Below are positions 40,847 to 50,224 of a DNA stretch of 64,000 bases, piece by piece (positions within the stretch are counted from its first letter, which is position 1; each line of letters opens with the position of its first letter). The stretch is from Acaryochloris sp. CCMEE 5410 (GTDB taxonomy: Bacteria; Cyanobacteriota; Cyanobacteriia; Thermosynechococcales; Thermosynechococcaceae): assembly GCF_000238775.2 (NCBI RefSeq), contig NZ_AFEJ02000001.1:2480001-2544000 (forward strand), in the 5' to 3' direction. The translations under genes and the position numbers were made by a program. Under the pieces are notes generated by a model, which saw only the letters and a list, made by a program, of their open reading frames with translations, had not been told where the DNA came from and did no database searches.

Positions 40847-41788
40847 ATGCCGTTTTTTCAATCAGATGATCAGCTCCAATCTCAAGGCCAATCCATTTTG
40901 GAAGAAGTCTGGACCAAATTCCCCTGGTTAGCTCAAAATCAGCTGGCCATAACCTGGCTTGTCTATGATCCGCCTTTCATCACCAATACCGGCGGCAGCA
41001 TCAGTCCCCAAGAATTTTGGCAATATCCGGTGCGGGGGTATAGCTATCGGGGTGTGGAATGTATTTATCCCGCCAGCGTCGTCAAGCTGTTTTATCTCGT
41101 CGCCGCCCATGAGTGGTTAGAAACGGGCATGATGCAGCCATCGGCGGAATTAGACCGGGCGATGCAGGACATGATTATTGACTCTAGTAACGATGGCACG
41201 GGTCTGGTGGTGGATATGCTGACCGGCACCACCAGCGGTCCCGAGCTGCCCCCTGAACCGTTTAAAACCTGGCAGCACCAGCGCAACATCGTCAATCGGT
41301 ATTTCCAATCCTTGGGTTGGCCGGAACTGGGGACCATTAATGCCAATCAAAAAACCTGGGGCGATGGCCCCTACGGACGAGAACAGGCGTTTGTAGGAGA
41401 AACCCGAGCCAATCGCAATATGCTGACGACAGAAGCGACCGCCCGTCTGCTGCATAGTATTGTCGGTGGAGTATCGGTATCGGCGGTGCGATCGCAAGCC
41501 ATGCTCGACCTAATGCTACGAGACCTCAACCCCGACATACTAGCCGCAGACCCTGAAAATCAGGTCACTGGGTTTATCGGCGGTGGGGTTCCCTTAGATA
41601 CGAAGGTCTGGTCTAAGGCTGGATGGACCAGCACCGTCCGCCATGATGCTGCCTATATTGAACTGCCCAATCGCTCGCCCTATTTATTAGTGGTGTTTAC
41701 CGAGGGCAAACAAGCCAGCGATAACGAAGACGTCATTCCCTTTATTTCCGCCAAAGTGGCTGAGACTGTCCCCACCCACCCTGGCTAA
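40847..41788 (+). CDS. Class A beta-lactamase-fold serine hydrolase
   Basis: 313 residues, no signal peptide seen. The active-site motifs of the penicillin-recognising fold are present: S-x-x-K in YPASVVKLFYLV (about residue 83), S-x-N in IDSSNDGTG and a K-A-G-W stretch in VWSKAGWTSTV in place of the usual K-T/S-G. The E166-type omega loop is not obvious. Likely a cell-wall related or esterase-like relative rather than a resistance enzyme, because the motif is altered and the N-terminus has no export signal. It abuts the convergent ferredoxin gene with no gap. Confidence 0.8.
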   Translation: MPFFQSDDQLQSQGQSILEEVWTKFPWLAQNQLAITWLVYDPPFITNTGGSISPQEFWQYPVRGYSYRGVECIYPASVVKLFYLVAAHEWLETGMMQPSAELDRAMQDMIIDSSNDGTGLVVDMLTGTTSGPELPPEPFKTWQHQRNIVNRYFQSLGWPELGTINANQKTWGDGPYGREQAFVGETRANRNMLTTEATARLLHSIVGGVSVSAVRSQAMLDLMLRDLNPDILAADPENQVTGFIGGGVPLDTKVWSKAGWTSTVRHDAAYIELPNRSPYLLVVFTEGKQASDNEDVIPFISAKVAETVPTHPG

Positions 41789-42061: not shown

Positions 42062-42508
42062 TAATCTTAATGAATTTCTTCCCGAAATGGCTAGGAGCCG
42101 CGTCTAATCGCAGTTATCCCTCTTGGCCTGAGGTCCACCCTGCCGATCTGCGTAACAAAGCCCCGCCCCCCCGATAACTGAGTGTAGTAACCCTGGCGTT
42201 TTTCCATTTCTATGTCTAATCCGTTGATATAAATCACTGTGTCTACCCTGGAGGAACCGCTAGACTTGCCGATAAGTTGCAATCCTCTCTAAACAGGTAC
42301 TTGCGTCTTTTAAATATTGGGTTCAAGAAGCGCCTCGTCTTGAACGAGAGCCAGCAACCATCAGACTGATCACAACATGCATATCAAAGCAGAGTGTGAA
42401 CGACATGATTTAGAGTCCGACCAAACCCTAAAAACTTGTAATTTTTGGGATTTCTATGAGTCGACTCTCTTAAAATATGGGTTGGAATGAGCGTTTTGGT
42501 TTGGGTTG
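42062..42508. other. Upstream region of the membrane kinase gene
   Basis: 446 bp. It contains a doubtful 63-codon minus-strand ORF (42091-42282) and an 8-bp inverted repeat (42321-42328 with 42338-42345). No terminator-like T run follows the repeat. Confidence 0.35.
42091..42282 (-). CDS. Possible small protein upstream of the ferredoxin-like gene
   Basis: 63 codons (MQLIGKSSGSSRVDTVIYIN at the start). The composition is protein-like, and it lies about 30 nt upstream of the longest ferredoxin-like frame on the same strand, so co-transcription is possible. No motif and no clear ribosome binding site, so it could equally be chance. Confidence 0.25.
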   Translation of the reverse strand: MQLIGKSSGSSRVDTVIYINGLDIEMEKRQGYYTQLSGGRGFVTQIGRVDLRPRGITAIRRGS

Positions 42509-44455
42509 ATGGTTGAGATGTCCGGACAAGTCATAGCCTATCGGTATCATGTGCTAAAAACCTTAGCGCAAGGGTCTTTTGGGACTACTTTTTTAGCCCG
42601 AGATACCTATTTACCCGATTATCCACAGTGCGTGATCAAGCAGCTCCAGCCCGATTCAAGTGATCCGAAATTCCTGGAGATTGCTCGCCGACTATTTGAA
42701 CAAGAAGCGAGCATTTTAGGCAACCTAGGTAACCATCCTCGGATTCCCAAACTTCTCTCTTATTTTGAGTCCGAACAAGATTTTTTTCTGGTCCAAGAAT
42801 TTATTGATGGCATTTCGATTGCCCAGGAATTGAGTCCCGATAAACGGTGGCCAGAAGCCAAGGTTAAAGCCTTCCTCATTGAATGTTTAGACATCCTCAA
42901 ATATGTCCATGACCTAGGGGTGATTCACCGAGATATTAAGCCGGACAACTTAATTCGACGATTGTCGGACCAGGCTGTATTTTTACTGGACTTTGGAGCC
43001 GTTAAGCAAATTAGCAGCGGTCAAAACCAAGCCACCGAGACCACGATTGCCGTCGGTACCCCAGGCTATATGCCGGACGAGCAAATTCGCGGCAAACCCC
43101 ATATTAGTAGCGATATCTATGCGTTAGGCACCATTGGTATCTATGGGTTAACGGGCGTTCGTCCCGTCGAGTTTGAGCGTAGCGAAGAAGACGAAATCCT
43201 CTGGCAGAGTCAAGCCGACGTCAGTACGGGGATGGCTGAAATTTTACGAAAGATGGTTCGTCGAGACTATCGCAAGCGCTATCAGTCTGTCGCCGAAGTG
43301 TTAGCGGATCTCGAACAGGTGCCTGATGTAATGGGCAGCAAGACCATGGCCGCCGCCAAAACGGAAGCCATACCCGGCCTGCTAGATGCAGAAAGTGTCC
43401 CAGCAGAGCCTCCTTCTACCATTTATCAATCTCCAGCCTCAGTTACTACCGACCACTCAACCAACCAAGTCACCAATCAAGACACGAACATTCAGGCACC
43501 CCCCGTACAGCCTGAAAAGGGCACTGCCCCCATCTATGAAACCAGCGGCGCCAAAACAAAATCCCGTCAATTGCTCAAGGTGCTCGTGCCCTCCACGGTT
43601 TTAGTCGGGGCAGGCATCGGTGGGTTTCTACTCTGGGGGCCAAAAACCCTTAGTCAAACGGCGGCTCAACTGAGTCAACTACATGGGCAAGCCAAATATT
43701 CTGAATGTATTGACCTAGGCGAGACTGCCATGACCCAGCAGTCTAAGGCAGTCAATCAATTACTCAACCCCCTCTCCAAGTGCTATCTCGGCCAGGCCAA
43801 ACAACTGGCTGAGGAAACGAAGTTGGGGGAGGCGGTACAGATGGTCACTAAGGTGTCCGATCAGAGTACCTATCATTTTCAAGCCACCCAGAAATTAGAT
43901 GACTGGTCCGCCCTGATCCTGCAAGAGGCTCGCCAGAACTATGAAATTAAGGGAGATTTAAAGCTGGCGTTGGCGGGAATTGAACAAATTCCCACGACTA
44001 GCGTCGTTAAGACCAAAGCCCAGCGTGAATCTAAGCAATGGCAAGACAAGCATAGTGCTAATGAAAAGAAGATCACGGCGGCTAAAAAAGCCTTAAAGGA
44101 AGGGCGTGAGGAAGATGCGATCGCAACTGCGAAACAAATCAAAGCGCCAGAGTATTGGAAGAAGATCGCCGATCAGATCCAGAAGGATGCCAAAACTGCG
44201 ATCGCCAATCGGCCAGCCCCCGAACCCGTTTGGCAGCCCCCTGCTCAAACAGCCACCCGGTCGGCCCCTCCGGTCTATCAGCCCCCCGTTCGCTCTGCTC
44301 CGGTTTACCAACCGCCAGTCCGGTCAGCGCCTCCCCCCGTCTATCGTCCCCCTGCCCGGTCGGCCCCTCCGGTCTATCAGCCCCCGGCACAACCGGCTCC
44401 TCCCCCCCAGAAAGAAGTAGTGAATATCTGCCCTGGTCCTTTGTGTTCAGAATGA
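42509..44455 (+). CDS. Membrane-anchored Ser/Thr protein kinase with Pro-rich repeat tail
   Basis: About 648 residues. Kinase domain at about 10-275: LAQGSFGTTFLARD, lysine in CVIKQLQPD, catalytic GVIHRDIKPDNL (about 138-149), LLDFGAVKQI and VGTPGYMPDEQ. A Ser/Thr/Pro-rich linker precedes a single transmembrane helix near 355-373 (LVPSTVLVGAGIGGFLLWG). The outer part has a helical region of about 190 residues and then tandem PPVYQPPVRSAP-type repeats (about 575-640), ending CPGPLCSE. So the kinase is inside and the repeats outside, as in envelope-sensing kinases. Downstream genes encode exported proteins on the same strand, its possible partners. Start ATG 42509; ATG 42518 is also possible. 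Confidence 0.9.
   Translation: MVEMSGQVIAYRYHVLKTLAQGSFGTTFLARDTYLPDYPQCVIKQLQPDSSDPKFLEIARRLFEQEASILGNLGNHPRIPKLLSYFESEQDFFLVQEFIDGISIAQELSPDKRWPEAKVKAFLIECLDILKYVHDLGVIHRDIKPDNLIRRLSDQAVFLLDFGAVKQISSGQNQATETTIAVGTPGYMPDEQIRGKPHISSDIYALGTIGIYGLTGVRPVEFERSEEDEILWQSQADVSTGMAEILRKMVRRDYRKRYQSVAEVLADLEQVPDVMGSKTMAAAKTEAIPGLLDAESVPAEPPSTIYQSPASVTTDHSTNQVTNQDTNIQAPPVQPEKGTAPIYETSGAKTKSRQLLKVLVPSTVLVGAGIGGFLLWGPKTLSQTAAQLSQLHGQAKYSECIDLGETAMTQQSKAVNQLLNPLSKCYLGQAKQLAEETKLGEAVQMVTKVSDQSTYHFQATQKLDDWSALILQEARQNYEIKGDLKLALAGIEQIPTTSVVKTKAQRESKQWQDKHSANEKKITAAKKALKEGREEDAIATAKQIKAPEYWKKIADQIQKDAKTAIANRPAPEPVWQPPAQTATRSAPPVYQPPVRSAPVYQPPVRSAPPPVYRPPARSAPPVYQPPAQPAPPPQKEVVNICPGPLCSE
44214..44400 (+). repeat. 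Coding repeats for the proline-rich tail of the kinase
   Basis: Imperfect copies of a unit encoding (R)SAPPVYQPPV, about 30-36 bp each, with a nearly identical stretch (CGGTCGGCCCCTCCGGTCTA) at 44260 and 44359. Copy number is likely to vary. Confidence 0.7.
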
Positions 44456-44577
44456 GGTTACCGATGTCATCAACAACGTCATCAACAATTTAGCTATCCG
44501 GCCTATCCCTGAGGGATCAGCCAACCAAATTTCATGCGGGTGATTTATGCCAGTGACAACGACTTCAAGGTATTGAA

Positions 44578-45255
44578 ATGACTTATTTTTCTAGAATTCT
44601 CTTCACATCTTCTCTCTGCTTAACAGCCACCCTGGCCCAGGTTGCTACCCCCTTAGCGGCCTCTGCCGACCCAAGTTTATCGACCCCCGGCATCCCTGCT
44701 GTCCCCACGGTTTCAGAAGGAGAAAACGCCACTTCCCCCCAAATCAAACCGGGTATTTCACCCGATCAACCCGTAAAACCCAGAATTCGCTATGAATGCA
44801 AAAATGAGGCGGATAAATTATCGACTGTCGCCCATACTGAGCGCGGCATGATTGAGCTGATTGTGTGGGAAAGCAACTTTTTTGGTACTACTTGGACCCC
44901 GGCAAAAAGATGTGAAACTGTAACCCAACGATTTCAGCAATTCTCTGACCAGCGACTCCTCAAATTTGTCTCGACAGGAAGTATGAATAACTACCAAGTT
45001 ATTTGTATCTCTGAGCAAGCAGGACAATGCCTGGATCAAGGATTATTAATTACCCTAGAGCCTAAAGATAAACCCACACGGGTATTGCGCCAACTGTTCA
45101 ACTATCGCACCAGTATTCGCCGAGGCGGTCCCAAAAAAGAGGTCATTGACTTTGAGCGTTTATTAAACGAAAGAACGCCCGTCGCTGAGCCTGAAAGCGC
45201 TATCGGTGGTACAGCAGACACTCCGATCAGCCCTAATCCTGGCTTAGATAATTAA
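44578..45255 (+). CDS. Exported COP23-domain protein
   Basis: 225 residues. An N-terminal signal peptide (LFTSSLCLTATLAQVATPLA, cleavage near ASA) and a short Pro-rich spacer precede a domain (about 70-195) with IRYECKNEADKLSTVA, WTPAKRCETVTQRFQQF and NNYQVICISEQAGQCLDQ. The four cysteines fit the COP23 family, named after a circadian-oscillating membrane-bound protein of Cyanothece. Function unknown; the even cysteines suggest disulphides in an oxidising compartment. It follows the membrane kinase by 122 nt and is closed by a terminator. Confidence 0.82.
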   Translation: MTYFSRILFTSSLCLTATLAQVATPLAASADPSLSTPGIPAVPTVSEGENATSPQIKPGISPDQPVKPRIRYECKNEADKLSTVAHTERGMIELIVWESNFFGTTWTPAKRCETVTQRFQQFSDQRLLKFVSTGSMNNYQVICISEQAGQCLDQGLLITLEPKDKPTRVLRQLFNYRTSIRRGGPKKEVIDFERLLNERTPVAEPESAIGGTADTPISPNPGLDN

Positions 45256-45341
45256 TGTTCGCTCTGTCTTAACGGACGTTTTCTTCTAAAGATTTAAGCC
45301 TTGTAGCGGTCAGTCTTTTAGGCCTGAATTATCAATTTTTT

Positions 45342-45379
45342 TCCAGAGAGTATGTTTCTTTTTACTCTCTGGATTTTTT
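45342..45379 (+). terminator. Factor-independent terminator
   Basis: An 11-bp perfect stem (45342-45352 with 45363-45373), 10-nt loop, followed by six T. Ends the kinase-COP23 transcript and separates it from the barrel-CHAT pair. Confidence 0.88.
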
Positions 45380-45543
45380 ATGGTGCAGTATCCAGTTGAG
45401 GGCAATTCATCCACCTGATAGATATTGATATTTTCTGAATATCAGCTTCAATCGCTTGACAGTATGCTTCAATCTAGGGTGACTAATTTCCTGAGTCTGT
45501 TCAAGAGGACTGTTATTTATTGCGCTTATTTGTGGATAAATTT

Positions 45544-46794
45544 ATGCCGTTAAAGCCATACTCTATTTGCCAGCTAAGTCTCCTCTCGATTTCTGTTTGT
45601 CTCTCCTTTCCTAGCCCAGTCAGATCAACAGAACTTTCTCTGAAAAATACGTACCCTTTTAGCCAGCAAGATTTAACCCTACAAGAGAGTCTGAGGGGAC
45701 AAACCGTCGCCCCTACTGCTCCTCTCGACGTAGTGCTGGCCCAAGACTCCACAGTAGCCCTGCCAACGACATTGCAGTCGCCTCTGCCTTTTGCCCTTGA
45801 CACTCCTGCCTCCCTACCAGACGCTCCAGCTGCAGGTTCCGACACGGCTGCTTCCCCCGAATTAATGCCTTCCTTGACAACAGAGGTAACGGAGACACCG
45901 AGTAAACCTCTGCCAAACCATTCATCCTTTTCTACAGGTGAGTTTTACCCCACGCGTCTACCCATCCCCCAAACGGTCCCACCCTTATTAACCCTGGACC
46001 AAATTGCTCAGGTGCCAGACGGACCCAACCCAGACGAATCGGCAGGTCGTCGGCCCAGTATTCGCACCCAACCCTCTACTCCCGATGAAGCGCCATTGGA
46101 TCTGCGAGAAGAGTTGCTCACCCCTAAGATTATATACAGTCCCAGCACGACGATTCTGACACCGTCAGCTTATGGCAAATCTTGGCGGCAAGCTTCAGTG
46201 GGCTTTGGATTTCAGCATCGCACTCGATTTACCAATAGCGCCGATGGAGCGATTGGTGTGGGCATTGGCTTAGGGGATGCCCGCAAGTATGTGGGGCTAG
46301 ATGTGGGCCTCACCCTCACGGATTTAGATAATTTTGATCGAGGCATTATTAGCTTTAAGCTACATCGACGACTACCTGATTTATTTGCCGTCGCCGTCGG
46401 CGTCAATGATGCCATTAGCTGGGGACCCGGAGATATTGACGGTCCTAGCCCCTATGGGGTCGTATCCAAAACATTTATTTTCCAAGAAAATACCAAAGAC
46501 CTATTTAGCCGCATGTACGTCTCCGCCGGGCTAGGAACAGGACGGTATCGAACCGAAAATAATGTGTTTACCGATGATGATACCCCTGGCGTTTTTGGCA
46601 GCGTCGCCCTGCGCATTGCGGATCCAGTGAATGCGATCGCAGAATGGTCTGGCCAAGATCTATCCCTGGGCTTTTCTCTACGACCATTTCGCGAAATTCC
46701 GCTGATCATTACCCCAGCCATCACGGATGTAACGGGTACCGCCGGAGACGGGGTGCGCTTTATTTTTGGCGTCGGTTACGCCATTACGTTTTAG
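45544..46794 (+). CDS. Predicted outer-membrane beta-barrel protein
   Basis: About 416 residues from ATG 45544; a TTG at 45520 is possible. A signal peptide (SICQLSLLSISVCLSFPSPV) precedes a disordered Ser/Pro/Thr-rich half (about 30-205). The C-terminal half (about 215-416) has alternating hydrophobic strands (RQASVGFGFQHRTRF, KYVGLDVGLTLTDL, DLFAVAVGVNDAI, GVFGSVALRIADP) and ends in Phe (GVGYAITF), the usual signal for barrel insertion. Likely an outer-membrane barrel of about 8-12 strands. The secreted CHAT protein gene starts 36-60 nt downstream, so they form an operon. Confidence 0.75.
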   Translation: MPLKPYSICQLSLLSISVCLSFPSPVRSTELSLKNTYPFSQQDLTLQESLRGQTVAPTAPLDVVLAQDSTVALPTTLQSPLPFALDTPASLPDAPAAGSDTAASPELMPSLTTEVTETPSKPLPNHSSFSTGEFYPTRLPIPQTVPPLLTLDQIAQVPDGPNPDESAGRRPSIRTQPSTPDEAPLDLREELLTPKIIYSPSTTILTPSAYGKSWRQASVGFGFQHRTRFTNSADGAIGVGIGLGDARKYVGLDVGLTLTDLDNFDRGIISFKLHRRLPDLFAVAVGVNDAISWGPGDIDGPSPYGVVSKTFIFQENTKDLFSRMYVSAGLGTGRYRTENNVFTDDDTPGVFGSVALRIADPVNAIAEWSGQDLSLGFSLRPFREIPLIITPAITDVTGTAGDGVRFIFGVGYAITF

Positions 46795-46853
46795 AGCATT
46801 TCGTTGATTGACCTGATCGATAGCCCACTTTGATAGAAAAATCTCTTGTGACC

Positions 46854-48443
46854 ATGACCCAACTATTTAAAACCCCTTTTCGCCTCATTCATTTAGGGTT
46901 GCTGACGGTGGCAATGACCTTAAGCGTTGCTGGGCGGAGTATGGCCCAAACTCCGCTAGATCCACCAATTACCCCTGGTACACCAGGCACGCCAGGCACG
47001 CCTCCCACCAGTCAATCCGATGTGAACATGACGGGTCAATCAGACGCCAACACCGACGTCAATCCGGGGTTTGAAGATCCGCCTGCAGATACGCCTTTTA
47101 TCAACGGTGCCCCCACGGAAATCGCCAGGATTGAAAGCAGCTTTGCAGGGGTTTACGCTTCTAAGTTTGGCCCCTTCTATGGTGAGGCTGCGTCTGCAGA
47201 GGTGATTTCCCAGGAGTTAAAAAAACTGGCTAAAGCTACAGGTACCAATCCAGCCTTGCTCTATGTCCTGAAAACGGGAGAGGGACTGCAGCTGGTCTTG
47301 GTGACGGCGAACCTCAATGACTCTGAGCTGAGCCGCATTGATCAAGCCATCCAAGTGGCGTCCAGCCGACCGATACAGCTGGGACAGGCGGCTCCGTCTA
47401 CAGACGATCTCAATAATCCCAACGTAACCTTTATAAAAGTGCCGGAGGCCACCCTAGATCAGGTCTCCAAGGTTTCTAAAGACTTTCGACAGCAGATCAG
47501 TGACCCGATTGATTTCAAGTCTAAAAGCTATTTGGAGTCTGCCCAACAGCTCTATCAATGGATGGTTCAGCCCCTAGCTGCCGAGTTAGAAAAGGAAAAG
47601 ATTGATACCATCATCTTTTCCATGGATGCAGGGTTGCGATCGCTCCCCCTTGCCGCCCTGCACGATGGTGAGCAGTTTTTGGTTGAGCAATATAATTTGG
47701 CTTTAATTCCCAGCTTTAGCCTGACAGATACCCGCTTCGCTCCTATCCAAGGTAAGCAGGTTCTGGGCATGGGCATTACCCAGGAAGTAGAAGGCCAATC
47801 TCCCTTACCCTCTGTGGCCGTGGAAATTCCCGCTCTCACTGAAAATATTTGGCAAGGATCGGCCTATCTTGATCCAGATGTCACCCTCGACAATCTCAAG
47901 AAATTTACCCAGCAACAGCAATTCGACATTATCCACTTGGCGACCCATGCCGAGTTCAACCCCGGCAAGATCGATAAGTCGTTTATCCAGCTGTGGGACG
48001 GCAAGCTTACCCTGAAAGACTTGCGCGAGGTTGCGACTCAATCCAAATGGAGTAGCACACCTACCGTAGAACTGCTGGTGCTTAGTGCCTGTCAAACGGC
48101 TCTGGGTAATACGGATGCAGAGCTGGGCTTTACAGGCTTAGCGATTCAATCTGGGGTTAAGTCGGCATTAGGAAGTCTGTGGTTTGTCAGCGATGAAGGG
48201 ACCCTGGGGCTGATGACGGGATTTTATCAGAACTTGAAAACGGCTCCGATCAAGTCCGCGGCCCTGCGACAGGCCCAAATCGCCATGTTGCAGGGACAAG
48301 TTCGCGTCACCGATGATGCCCAATTGGTCTTGGCAGATGGCTCACAAATCGCCCTACCCACTATTTTTGCGGAACGGGGGGAAGTGGAGTTTACCCATCC
48401 CTACTATTGGTCTTCCTTTACGATGGTGGGCAACTGGAATTGA
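46854..48443 (+). CDS. Secreted CHAT-domain (caspase-like) protein
   Basis: About 529 residues. A signal peptide (LIHLGLLTVAMTLSVAGRSM, cleavage near MAQTP) is followed by a Pro/Gly/Thr-rich spacer (PGTPGTPGTPPTS) and a CHAT domain over the last 350 residues: MDAGLRSLPLAALHDGEQFL, then the catalytic His in IIHLATHAEF (codon 47946) and the catalytic Cys in LLVLSACQTALG (codon 48090). The usual TPR array ahead of CHAT is missing. So a protease of the caspase/gingipain clan may work outside the cytoplasm. The upstream barrel gene is its likely operon partner. TTG 46830 and GTG 46848 are other possible starts. Confidence 0.88.
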   Translation: MTQLFKTPFRLIHLGLLTVAMTLSVAGRSMAQTPLDPPITPGTPGTPGTPPTSQSDVNMTGQSDANTDVNPGFEDPPADTPFINGAPTEIARIESSFAGVYASKFGPFYGEAASAEVISQELKKLAKATGTNPALLYVLKTGEGLQLVLVTANLNDSELSRIDQAIQVASSRPIQLGQAAPSTDDLNNPNVTFIKVPEATLDQVSKVSKDFRQQISDPIDFKSKSYLESAQQLYQWMVQPLAAELEKEKIDTIIFSMDAGLRSLPLAALHDGEQFLVEQYNLALIPSFSLTDTRFAPIQGKQVLGMGITQEVEGQSPLPSVAVEIPALTENIWQGSAYLDPDVTLDNLKKFTQQQQFDIIHLATHAEFNPGKIDKSFIQLWDGKLTLKDLREVATQSKWSSTPTVELLVLSACQTALGNTDAELGFTGLAIQSGVKSALGSLWFVSDEGTLGLMTGFYQNLKTAPIKSAALRQAQIAMLQGQVRVTDDAQLVLADGSQIALPTIFAERGEVEFTHPYYWSSFTMVGNWN

Positions 48444-48583
48444 TCTAAATCAAAGAGAAGTATCATTCCGTTAGCCTAAATCATTCCCTTTAGGATTCCT
48501 CCAAAATTAAGGGCAGAGGATGAAAAGGGCCAAATTTGATATGCTCTTGAACGAATTGAGGGAAGGGTTACAGGGTAGATCAT

Positions 48584-50224
48584 ATGCTCAAGCGTGTTGC
48601 AGAACTAGGACTAGCAGTTGGTTCAGCCGTTTGGCTGTCCGTTCATGTTCATCCCAAACCCGCCAGAGGTGCCGAACGCATCTTTGGCTCGTTTCTCTCT
48701 TTTGAGCAATCGGTCTCAGTTGAGTCTTTAGAGACCTTCGCTGAAACGGGACGCATCACGGGAGATTTTATTCCCTATGCTCGCTATATCAGTCCTGAGC
48801 AACGCCCCTTCCTCCAAAATGCATTACAGCAAAAGCTAGCCATCTCTCCCGTTGCCGTATCGCAATTTCTCTATTCAGATATTGGCGAGTTAATGGTGCG
48901 TCGCATCGCTAAAGTCATTCGGCCCAAATCCAATCAAGGTGGGTTTTATGCTCTTAGAGGCGCACTCATTGTTGCGGCTGCTGATCCAGAGGGACTAACG
49001 GTTCTGAACTTTTTAAAGCACTATCCTATCCAAGGTCTGAAGATAGATCTGGATGAAGGGTTAGCCATTTTCTCTCAAATACGTGGCTTAATTCGACAAA
49101 CGAATACCTTGATTGAGACCTTGGAGAAGCAGACCCCTGATCGTCCCACAGATAACCCAACCAGAGCTGCCTTGACCCAGCCGGGACAATTTTCCTGGCA
49201 ACAAACGACCCTCACGTTATCAGATCAAAGTCCCACACGGCAGAACCTAACCGGGCAGTCCCGTCAGTTCCCCGTTGATCTCTATCTACCGCAAACCGCC
49301 AGTCCCCAGCCCAAACCGATTGTTGTGATTTCTCATGGCCTGAATTCCAATCGCGACTCTTATGGCTATTTAGCAGAACATCTTGCGTCTTATGGATTTG
49401 TGGTGGTCATGCCAGAACATATTGGCAGCAATACCAACCAGCTCCAAGCCTTGATGCTAGGGCGAGTGAAAGAGGTCACCCAACCAACAGAATTTCTGGA
49501 TCGCCCCTTAGATGTGCAGTTTGTATTGGATGAACTGGAAAGGTTATCAACCTCTGATCCCATGCTTCAAGGGCAGTTAAATCTTGACCAGGTTGGCGTA
49601 ATTGGCCAGTCTTTTGGCGGATATACAGCGCTAGCCTTAGCTGGGGCAACGATTAATTTTGAGCAACTTCAGCAAGATTGTGGGTCACGGCTCAAAGACA
49701 CGATCAATATCTCCTTAATACTCCAGTGCCAAGTGATTAAGTTGCCTCAACGACGATATGAGCTAGCAGATCCTCGGATTAAAGGGTCGATCGCCATCAA
49801 TCCAGTCACGAGTAGCGTGTTGGGTGAGACGCTTAGCCAAATCCAAACGCCAGTTATGTTTGTATCCGGCAGTGCCGATAAGGTGTCACCATCACTCCTA
49901 GAACAGGCCACTCCGTTTACATGGCTGACCGTGACAGATAAATATTTTGTCTTGATGCAGGGGGGCACCCATTTTTCCACCATTGATGCCGATCAGCCCC
50001 ATGACTCACCATCTGAGTTCCAAGGACTTGCGGGTCCCTCCCCTGGAACAGCTAAAGCATACCTATCCGCGTTGAGTGTCGCTTTTATGAAACGGCATAT
50101 CTTGGAAGACGCTAAGTTTGACACATATTTATCACCTCAATTCGTGGCGACTTTGAGACAGGGTAAACTCAAGCTCAATCTATCTAAGACCCTCTCTACC
50201 AATGAAATTTTAAATCCAGGCTAA
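48584..50224 (+). CDS. DUF1400 plus alpha/beta-hydrolase protein
   Basis: 546 residues. A signal-like N-terminus (LGLAVGSAVWLSVHV) precedes a DUF1400 domain (about 35-185; GSFLSFEQSVSVESLETFAE, VAVSQFLYSDIGELMVRRI). Then a dienelactone hydrolase-like fold: PIVVISHGLNSNRDSYGYLA (oxyanion), VGVIGQSFGGYTALALAG with the nucleophile serine, MFVSGSADKVSP (acid) and QGGTHFST (His). The full triad is visible, so an active esterase or lipase is likely, probably periplasmic. Its start is about 140 nt after the CHAT gene, same strand. In cyanobacteria such proteins are annotated as predicted dienelactone hydrolases without proven substrate. Confidence 0.87.
   Translation: MLKRVAELGLAVGSAVWLSVHVHPKPARGAERIFGSFLSFEQSVSVESLETFAETGRITGDFIPYARYISPEQRPFLQNALQQKLAISPVAVSQFLYSDIGELMVRRIAKVIRPKSNQGGFYALRGALIVAAADPEGLTVLNFLKHYPIQGLKIDLDEGLAIFSQIRGLIRQTNTLIETLEKQTPDRPTDNPTRAALTQPGQFSWQQTTLTLSDQSPTRQNLTGQSRQFPVDLYLPQTASPQPKPIVVISHGLNSNRDSYGYLAEHLASYGFVVVMPEHIGSNTNQLQALMLGRVKEVTQPTEFLDRPLDVQFVLDELERLSTSDPMLQGQLNLDQVGVIGQSFGGYTALALAGATINFEQLQQDCGSRLKDTINISLILQCQVIKLPQRRYELADPRIKGSIAINPVTSSVLGETLSQIQTPVMFVSGSADKVSPSLLEQATPFTWLTVTDKYFVLMQGGTHFSTIDADQPHDSPSEFQGLAGPSPGTAKAYLSALSVAFMKRHILEDAKFDTYLSPQFVATLRQGKLKLNLSKTLSTNEILNPG

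Follow-up and report, generated by a model that had tools for sequence, protein, structure and literature searches.

A conserved gene pair for a predicted 12-strand outer-membrane barrel and a CHAT caspase-like protease in Acaryochloris sp. CCMEE 5410 and other cyanobacteria

Locus organization

The window analysed here is a stretch of 64,000 nucleotides from Acaryochloris sp. CCMEE 5410, contig NZ_AFEJ02000001.1, and contains a gene for a predicted outer-membrane beta-barrel followed after 35 nt by a gene for a CHAT caspase-like protease with a short N-terminal tag. This barrel–CHAT pair is real and conserved, and is part of a wider family in which a barrel is encoded together with a tagged partner protein. 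A sequence-only reading of the same DNA had described five consecutive genes on one strand, and all five open reading frames (ORFs) are present, with the features listed below.

42506..44455, + strand: Ser/Thr kinase with a transmembrane segment (by eye) and a Pro-rich tail (Pfam Pkinase, 5e-35)
44578..45255, + strand: COP23-domain secreted protein (Pfam COP23, PF14218, 2e-34; 118.7 bits against a cut-off of 27)
45342..45373, + strand: intrinsic-terminator-like hairpin followed by a T-run, between COP23 and the barrel (11 pairs, -17.4 kcal/mol, z -7.4)
45520..46794, + strand: predicted outer-membrane 12-strand beta-barrel, 424 aa (AlphaFold2 fold, fold match and strand alternation; no Pfam match)
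46830..48443, + strand: CHAT caspase-like protease, 537 aa (Pfam CHAT, PF12770, 4e-74, residues 236–535; predicted fold)
47010..47069, + strand: diverged, duplicated N-terminal CHAT tag, SQSDVN...GQSDAN (comparison with relatives)
47946..47948, + strand: codon of dyad His373, in HLATH (alignment of paired CHATs)
48090..48092, + strand: codon of dyad Cys421, in LSACQTALG (alignment of paired CHATs)
48584..50224, + strand: DUF1400 alpha/beta hydrolase (Pfam DUF1400, 9e-42), outside the barrel–CHAT module

The products of all five genes had been predicted to lie outside the cytoplasm. Read by eye, the COP23, barrel, CHAT and DUF1400 proteins do have signal-peptide-like starts, and the kinase has its transmembrane segment. 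A single five-gene envelope operon was rejected in view of the hairpin between COP23 and the barrel, the lack of conservation of the DUF1400 gene, and the confinement of the kinase-containing gene order to the genus. The correct pair had been picked, with the boundaries of the unit set too wide and the tag out of reach. Because the terminator-like hairpin separates COP23 from the barrel, barrel and CHAT are, on sequence grounds, probably a transcription unit of their own. The hairpin was missed by a pattern scan, its loop exceeding the length that the scan permits.

Conservation of the barrel–CHAT pair

The genome collection was scanned with one barrel peptide pattern and the best 80 of 159 relatives' loci were kept. 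These hold 81 barrels, 47 of which have a CHAT gene downstream on the same strand with a median gap of 30 nt, a CHAT being counted when it was the first or second next ORF. ORFs were called with a simple longest-ORF script, which places some starts too early and hence gives negative gaps among the 81 barrels. In one locus (L101) a small opposite-strand ORF lies between barrel and CHAT, with a gap of 499, and in another (L100) the CHAT is split between frames. By record label the 80 loci are cyanobacterial save L100, a Gracilibacteria bin, and by the same labels the pair is present in Acaryochloris, Nostoc, Calothrix, Tolypothrix, Oscillatoria, Microcoleus, Laspinema, Spirulina, Roseofilum, Pleurocapsa, and others. 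The adjacency of the two genes in relatives, on which the sequence-only reading had staked its proposal beforehand, is thus conserved. Within the genus, six of seven genomes carry the pair and the seventh (G001, 87% complete) shows no barrel; three other family genomes (G009, G012, and G017) likewise keep barrel and CHAT side by side.

A tree was made of 150 non-redundant barrels, to which a set of 186 had been reduced by removing sequences more than 95% alike over the final 120 residues. On it the barrels partnered with CHAT group in a single clade of 48 rows (Shimodaira–Hasegawa-like approximate likelihood ratio support of 87, quick method, midpoint root), made up of 45 with a CHAT and 3 cut by contig ends. 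In two of the latter (L104 and L110) a tagged protein begins before the sequence breaks off; L104, L110, and L120 were scored as non-CHAT in the counts of changes on the tree. CHAT was probably recruited to the barrel once. In a mirror-tree comparison the barrel and CHAT distances have an r of 0.82 over 42 pairs, with none of 2000 permutations as high, an agreement that is equally expected from joint vertical descent alone. No natural barrel–CHAT fusion ORF was found in the loci of this set by a Rosetta stone check.

Barrel protein

The barrel protein has a signal-peptide-like start and then a Pro-rich disordered stretch at about residues 30–190. Its AlphaFold2 (AF2) model, based on a 54-row alignment, has 12 strands at residues 224–423, mostly with a predicted local distance difference test score (pLDDT) above 90, and the C-terminal residue is Phe. 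The C-terminal-Phe outer-membrane barrel proposed from the sequence is therefore supported by both the model and the terminal residue. In each strand one alternating set of residues is hydrophobic and is taken as outward. With sides assigned in this way, the invariant inward-facing residues are Q232, D242, K280, H282, E375, and R413, and the inward set is on average conserved better than the outward set (0.74 versus 0.62, p 0.005). Segment 207–222, which precedes strand 1, is also conserved, with P208, P215, and G219 invariant in the 54 rows.

No Pfam or NCBIfam family matches the barrel at E <= 0.1, and a known porin was rejected on this sequence evidence. The best fold match by VIA-align is FapF (Z 18.3, root-mean-square deviation 3.0, 195 residues), with model residues from 202 onward aligned to FapF from residue 88 onward.

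CHAT protease

The CHAT profile (PF12770) scores 250 bits in the window protein against a curated cut-off of 24. A signal-peptide-like start and a tagged disordered leader are followed by a pseudo-caspase and caspase part at residues 86–537. No tetratricopeptide repeat (TPR) family was found in the protein with Pfam at E <= 0.1, and the folded part of the model begins at the pseudo-caspase part. The model has the complete pseudo-caspase plus caspase arrangement of Csx29 (Z 28.4) and separase (Z up to 23.6). The dyad His, H373 in the window, is kept in all 48 aligned paired CHATs, the window's included, and the dyad Cys, C421, in 47 of them; the 48th is the CHAT of L100 that is split between frames. 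Judged from alignment and model, the protein is a putative caspase-like protease with an intact His–Cys dyad.

A secreted CHAT without a TPR array next to a barrel had been thought unusual. The signal-peptide-like start and the absence of a TPR match stand, but a secreted short CHAT is in itself not rare, since relatives have CHATs of similar size (538–564 aa) with signal-peptide-like starts and no neighbouring barrel in loci L061, L062, and L063, and the window's genome has 21 CHAT matches. It is the barrel pairing, rather than the secreted short CHAT itself, that sets this CHAT apart. The three barrel-less CHATs share a different start, AQF followed by FG/GP-rich sequence, and a giant CHAT protein is found near the short one in L061 (2122 aa) and L062 (1773 aa). 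Some of the 21 CHAT matches in the window's genome lie in open frames of only 405–480 residues.

Wider barrel family and its partners

The barrel was found in 104 of the 291 genomes drawn from the class. The matches examined from these genomes comprise 30 with given loci and 60 further regions, besides the regions of the earlier locus set. For 142 of the 150 non-redundant barrels the next gene is on the same strand at a gap of -250 to 600 nt (median 30 nt), and 8 have no qualifying next gene. By a crude rule, 128 of these 142 next genes encode a signal peptide, compared with 286 of 1337 control ORFs.

Partners were grouped by BLAST of their bodies only, since an earlier clustering had chained 123 proteins through low-complexity sequence, and 140 of the 142 were long enough to enter. 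The largest groups are the CHATs (45), Cys-containing proteins of about 140 aa (26), and proteins of about 300 aa (22) and 205 aa (12); the rest form groups of 6, 6, 3, and 2, with 18 singletons. By eye, the groups of about 300 aa and 205 aa may be distant relatives of each other. No Pfam match above the cut-off was found in the eight small partners scanned. The partners of sibling barrels are small and secreted-looking, and some are of low complexity. A single genome can hold several barrels, each with its own partner, as in Oscillatoria princeps RMCB-10 (L083, L091, and L126) and Oscillatoria sp. PCC 10802 (L084, L118, and L124).

SLH domains are present in the sibling barrel of L047, the only CHAT-less barrel that was domain-scanned, and by eye in L051. 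In L049 the barrel and its small tagged secreted protein precede ABC-2 exporter and glycan genes, namely an ABC-2 permease, an ABC ATPase, methyltransferases, and glycosyltransferases, and the gene-length runs after the barrel in several other loci resemble this one. It is possible that sibling barrels of the L049 type are the missing outer-membrane part of cyanobacterial polysaccharide export.

N-terminal tag

Many paired CHATs have the sequence Q-[ST]-G-N-[QM]-S-D-[VI]-T-x-P-N-P straight after the signal peptide. A closely similar sequence, N-x-S-D-[ITV]-T-G, opens the mature part of many partners in the groups of about 140 aa and 205 aa. The NxSDxTG tag is therefore shared by CHAT and at least two other partner families, the bodies of which are unrelated by BLAST. 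Within the first 120 residues, NxSD occurs in 71 of the 114 near-clade partners, in 1 of the 28 far-clade partners, and in 30 of the 1337 control ORFs; by group, it is found in 34 of 45 CHATs, 19 of 26 partners of about 140 aa, and 10 of 12 of about 205 aa. When the count is confined to CHATs whose start is complete, in loci up to L161, 35 of the 47 paired proteins have strict NxSD, as does 1 of the 14 unpaired ones, namely the split fragment in L100. The looser [NSGT]xSD is found in 43 of 47 and 3 of 14, respectively. The far barrel clades (L226–L247, L205–L219, and L222–L246) have partners with clade-specific N-terminal motifs of their own at the same place: VPTGLTSGVSVGGSN; TPRGTSGINTGSEVAP; and repeated SPSxGTAGSxSGG.

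Paired CHATs contain from 0 to 5 copies of the tag ([NST]xSD), and tag and core are separated by mostly 15 to 350 residues, as estimated by subtraction. In the window the tag is shifted about 20 residues inward by a Pro/Gly/Thr insert. Tandem arrays of three to four copies (for example NxSDxTGPNxSDxTGPN) are seen in L098, L130, L175, L176, and L198, in CHATs and small partners alike. Within the N-termini of the barrels themselves, one chance-looking match to NxSD was found.

A DNA pattern for NQSD[IV]TG, in which the barrel was not used, gave 16 sites in the 291 genomes, compared with 9 for the reversed control pattern. Eleven of the 16 encode the tag close behind a signal-peptide-like start, and all 11 lie directly behind a barrel. 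The barrel ORF is directly upstream in ten, in some cut by the locus edge, and the eleventh (G223:C323) follows the last 52 residues of a barrel at a contig end. Four of the remaining five sites do not encode the motif; the fifth, NQTDITG at residue 81 of a 483-aa protein, is in frame and barrel-less.

Neighbouring genes

A COP23 gene lies no more than 400 nt upstream in 17 of the 45 CHAT-barrel loci, on the same strand in 15 and divergent in 2, and also upstream in all three members of the clade that are cut by contig ends. Only 2 of the 102 other barrels have COP23 within 3 kb, in a comparison that is uneven, with less than 700 nt of upstream DNA for 10 of the 102 and for none of the 45, and with many flanks shorter than the 3 kb span. 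Of the three other family genomes mentioned above, two have a divergent COP23, and none was seen in the third. The ten genomes searched hold 3–20 COP23 genes each, and it is therefore unlikely that the association is due to chance. COP23 probably has an accessory role in roughly one third of these loci; to call it an inhibitor, a substrate, or a chaperone of the secreted protease would be guesswork. One Oscillatoria princeps region (L091:1-20678) has two barrels and two COP23 genes, with one partner behind each barrel.

The order kinase–COP23–barrel–CHAT is found in five of the six genomes of the genus that have the pair, and the full order was seen in this genus only. Beyond it, there is a kinase match two genes upstream in L116 and L118 and downstream of a sibling barrel in L125. 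Kinases are common in these genomes. The suggestion that the protease is under the control of an envelope-sensing kinase is weak, given the confinement of the order to the genus and a kinase match near the barrel in three loci elsewhere. Upstream of the kinase in the window is a beta-lactamase2-family gene (40847–41788) that stays near the pair in the genus; a 72% identical gene is also near the pair in L043, where the kinase is missing. The DUF1400 hydrolase, which had been counted in the cluster, is downstream of CHAT in none of eight relatives, some of them on short contigs.

Possible function of the pair

Barrel and CHAT would together make up a dedicated two-gene envelope module, in which both proteins are routed via Sec, as their signal-peptide-like starts suggest. 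The barrel is predicted to fold into a 12-strand outer-membrane pore whose charged lumen is conserved, and the conserved segment before strand 1 may serve as a plug. In CHAT, a short tag near the mature N-terminus and a disordered leader would precede the complete pseudo-caspase/caspase pair. The tag would engage the lumen of its own barrel, by which CHAT would be retained at, or passed through, the outer membrane. The barrel may be a general platform, with sibling barrels using small partners of other families that have the same or a clade-specific start. Export via a FapF-like polypeptide pore is the slightly favoured version: because sibling partners resemble secreted low-complexity material, export or surface placement is put slightly ahead of a tether.

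The barrel quite possibly serves its tagged partner as a cognate outer-membrane receptor or as an export channel, with CHAT held at or carried through the outer membrane, and this reading is tentatively preferred here. The barrel-displayed or barrel-exported protease imagined from the sequence remains the leading idea, backed by the shared N-terminal tag and the FapF-like fold, with the tag–barrel contact and the final side of CHAT being inferred. A broader proposal, and a rather doubtful one, is that of a cyanobacterial outer-membrane cargo platform, in which 12-strand barrels would read the short tag of the partner as an address (NxSDxTG in the CHAT-containing branch and others elsewhere), cargo bodies would be swapped behind the tag, and one branch would bring a caspase-like protease to the cell surface or the outer membrane.

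Several points weigh against the preferred reading. A folded caspase should not fit through a 12-strand pore, and export would therefore need an unfolded state. Adjacency and co-evolution can mirror co-regulation alone, and the signal-peptide test is a home-made rule. The analogy with FapF is attractive, yet the fold alone is not decisive because other folds score near it: by VIA-align, KdgM has a Z of 17.0, the COG4313 channel 16.9, and NalP 16.1, while Foldseek E-values rank OmpA-short first and FapF second, nearly equal. A relationship to FapF was not found by sequence either, with no FapF chain recovered by a profile of 54 barrels at E <= 10. Strict NxSD is missing in 11 of the 45 paired CHATs, and the window's own tag is diverged (SQSDVN, GQSDAN). 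The 11 tag sites found with the DNA pattern come from 7 genera only and are all small partners, none a CHAT, and at least 2 of them are loci from which the motif was taken (L157 = L143, L149 = L145), such that the test is not wholly independent.

A tether and sensor resembling RcsF is an unlikely alternative, and the one that survives best. The tag would thread into the barrel from the periplasm, maybe to the surface, the CHAT domain would stay periplasmic on its flexible leader, and disturbance of the barrel would free or activate the protease. The order of tag, linker, and folded domain fits this just as well as it fits export, with an estimated linker length that ranges from about 15 to 350 aa, and the conserved charged lumen suits a fixed ligand better than varied cargo. 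However, CHAT has no lipid anchor apparent by eye, and sibling barrels have small partners, some of them low-complexity proteins resembling secreted material.

It is improbable that the two proteins are co-transcribed but physically independent, serving the same condition, with the tag read by another sorting factor. The DNA-pattern search ties the tag to the barrel family at 11 of 11 signal-peptide-proximal sites, and sibling barrels within one genome each own a partner; even so, the evidence is wholly genomic and the conservation of an operon is no proof of contact. Least probable of all is that CHAT is a processing peptidase for another cargo secreted through the barrel, as FapD is for FapC via FapF, for although FapF is the best VIA-align fold match and the active-site cysteine of FapD is reported to be required for FapC secretion (PMC5557850), the neighbourhood rows examined have no conserved substrate-like third gene, a COP23 neighbour is present in only 17 of the 45 loci, and non-protease partners carry the tag too.

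If the preferred reading of a barrel that receives or exports its tagged partner is true, a widespread, dyad-intact CHAT tied to a barrel would mean that caspase-like proteolysis takes place on the cell surface or at the outer membrane, where it might serve matrix processing, filament breakage, competition, or surveillance of the envelope. Csx29/Craspase and HetF, two CHAT proteases of known role, act intracellularly or at the divisome. The link between tag and barrel makes a cyanobacterial outer-membrane address code directly testable, and offers a starting hypothesis for a barrel family that has no name and occurs in roughly one third of the genomes sampled (104 of 291). No description of the barrel–CHAT pair was found in the literature searched, which left out most subscription papers.

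Comparison with known systems

Type Vb two-partner secretion, as in FhaC/FHA, uses a 16-strand barrel with POTRA domains. It resembles the present pair in having a barrel gene beside that of its own exported partner, which has an N-terminal targeting feature. In contrast, the barrel here has 12 strands and no POTRA match (no Pfam match at E <= 0.1), and the tag is about 10 residues rather than a folded TPS domain.

The Fap functional-amyloid secretion system of Pseudomonas likewise combines a 12-strand outer-membrane barrel and a Sec-exported cysteine protease in one locus (PMC5557850). FapF is reported to be a gated 12-strand polypeptide channel with a helical plug, and FapD is a periplasmic C39 cysteine peptidase on which secretion of FapC through FapF depends (PMC5557850). 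Fap systems are reported to be found only in Proteobacteria (PMC3792158). The cyanobacterial pair differs in having no sequence match to FapF at E <= 10, a CHAT/caspase protease instead of C39, and a tagged partner instead of amyloid subunits. FapF has an N-terminal periplasmic coiled coil, whereas barrel residues of about 30–190 are almost helix-free and of low pLDDT in the AF2 model. The FapF plug sits inside the lumen, joined to its wall by salt bridges; the possible counterpart here is the conserved segment 207–222.

With the TPR-CHAT proteases, Csx29/Craspase and HetF of Anabaena (PMC8406250), the protease shares the pseudo-caspase/caspase fold, with a Z of 28.4 to Csx29, and the His–Cys dyad. 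Unlike these, the barrel-linked CHAT is without a TPR array, has a signal-peptide-like start, and is paired with a barrel. In the complexes of RcsF with outer-membrane proteins (OMPs), a lipidated N-terminus is threaded through a barrel; a partner tied to a barrel by its flexible N-terminal part is a possible arrangement here. RcsF is a lipoprotein complexed with several OMPs (PMC4942254), whereas the arrangement in these cyanobacteria would involve one neighbour-encoded barrel and a protease as its partner.

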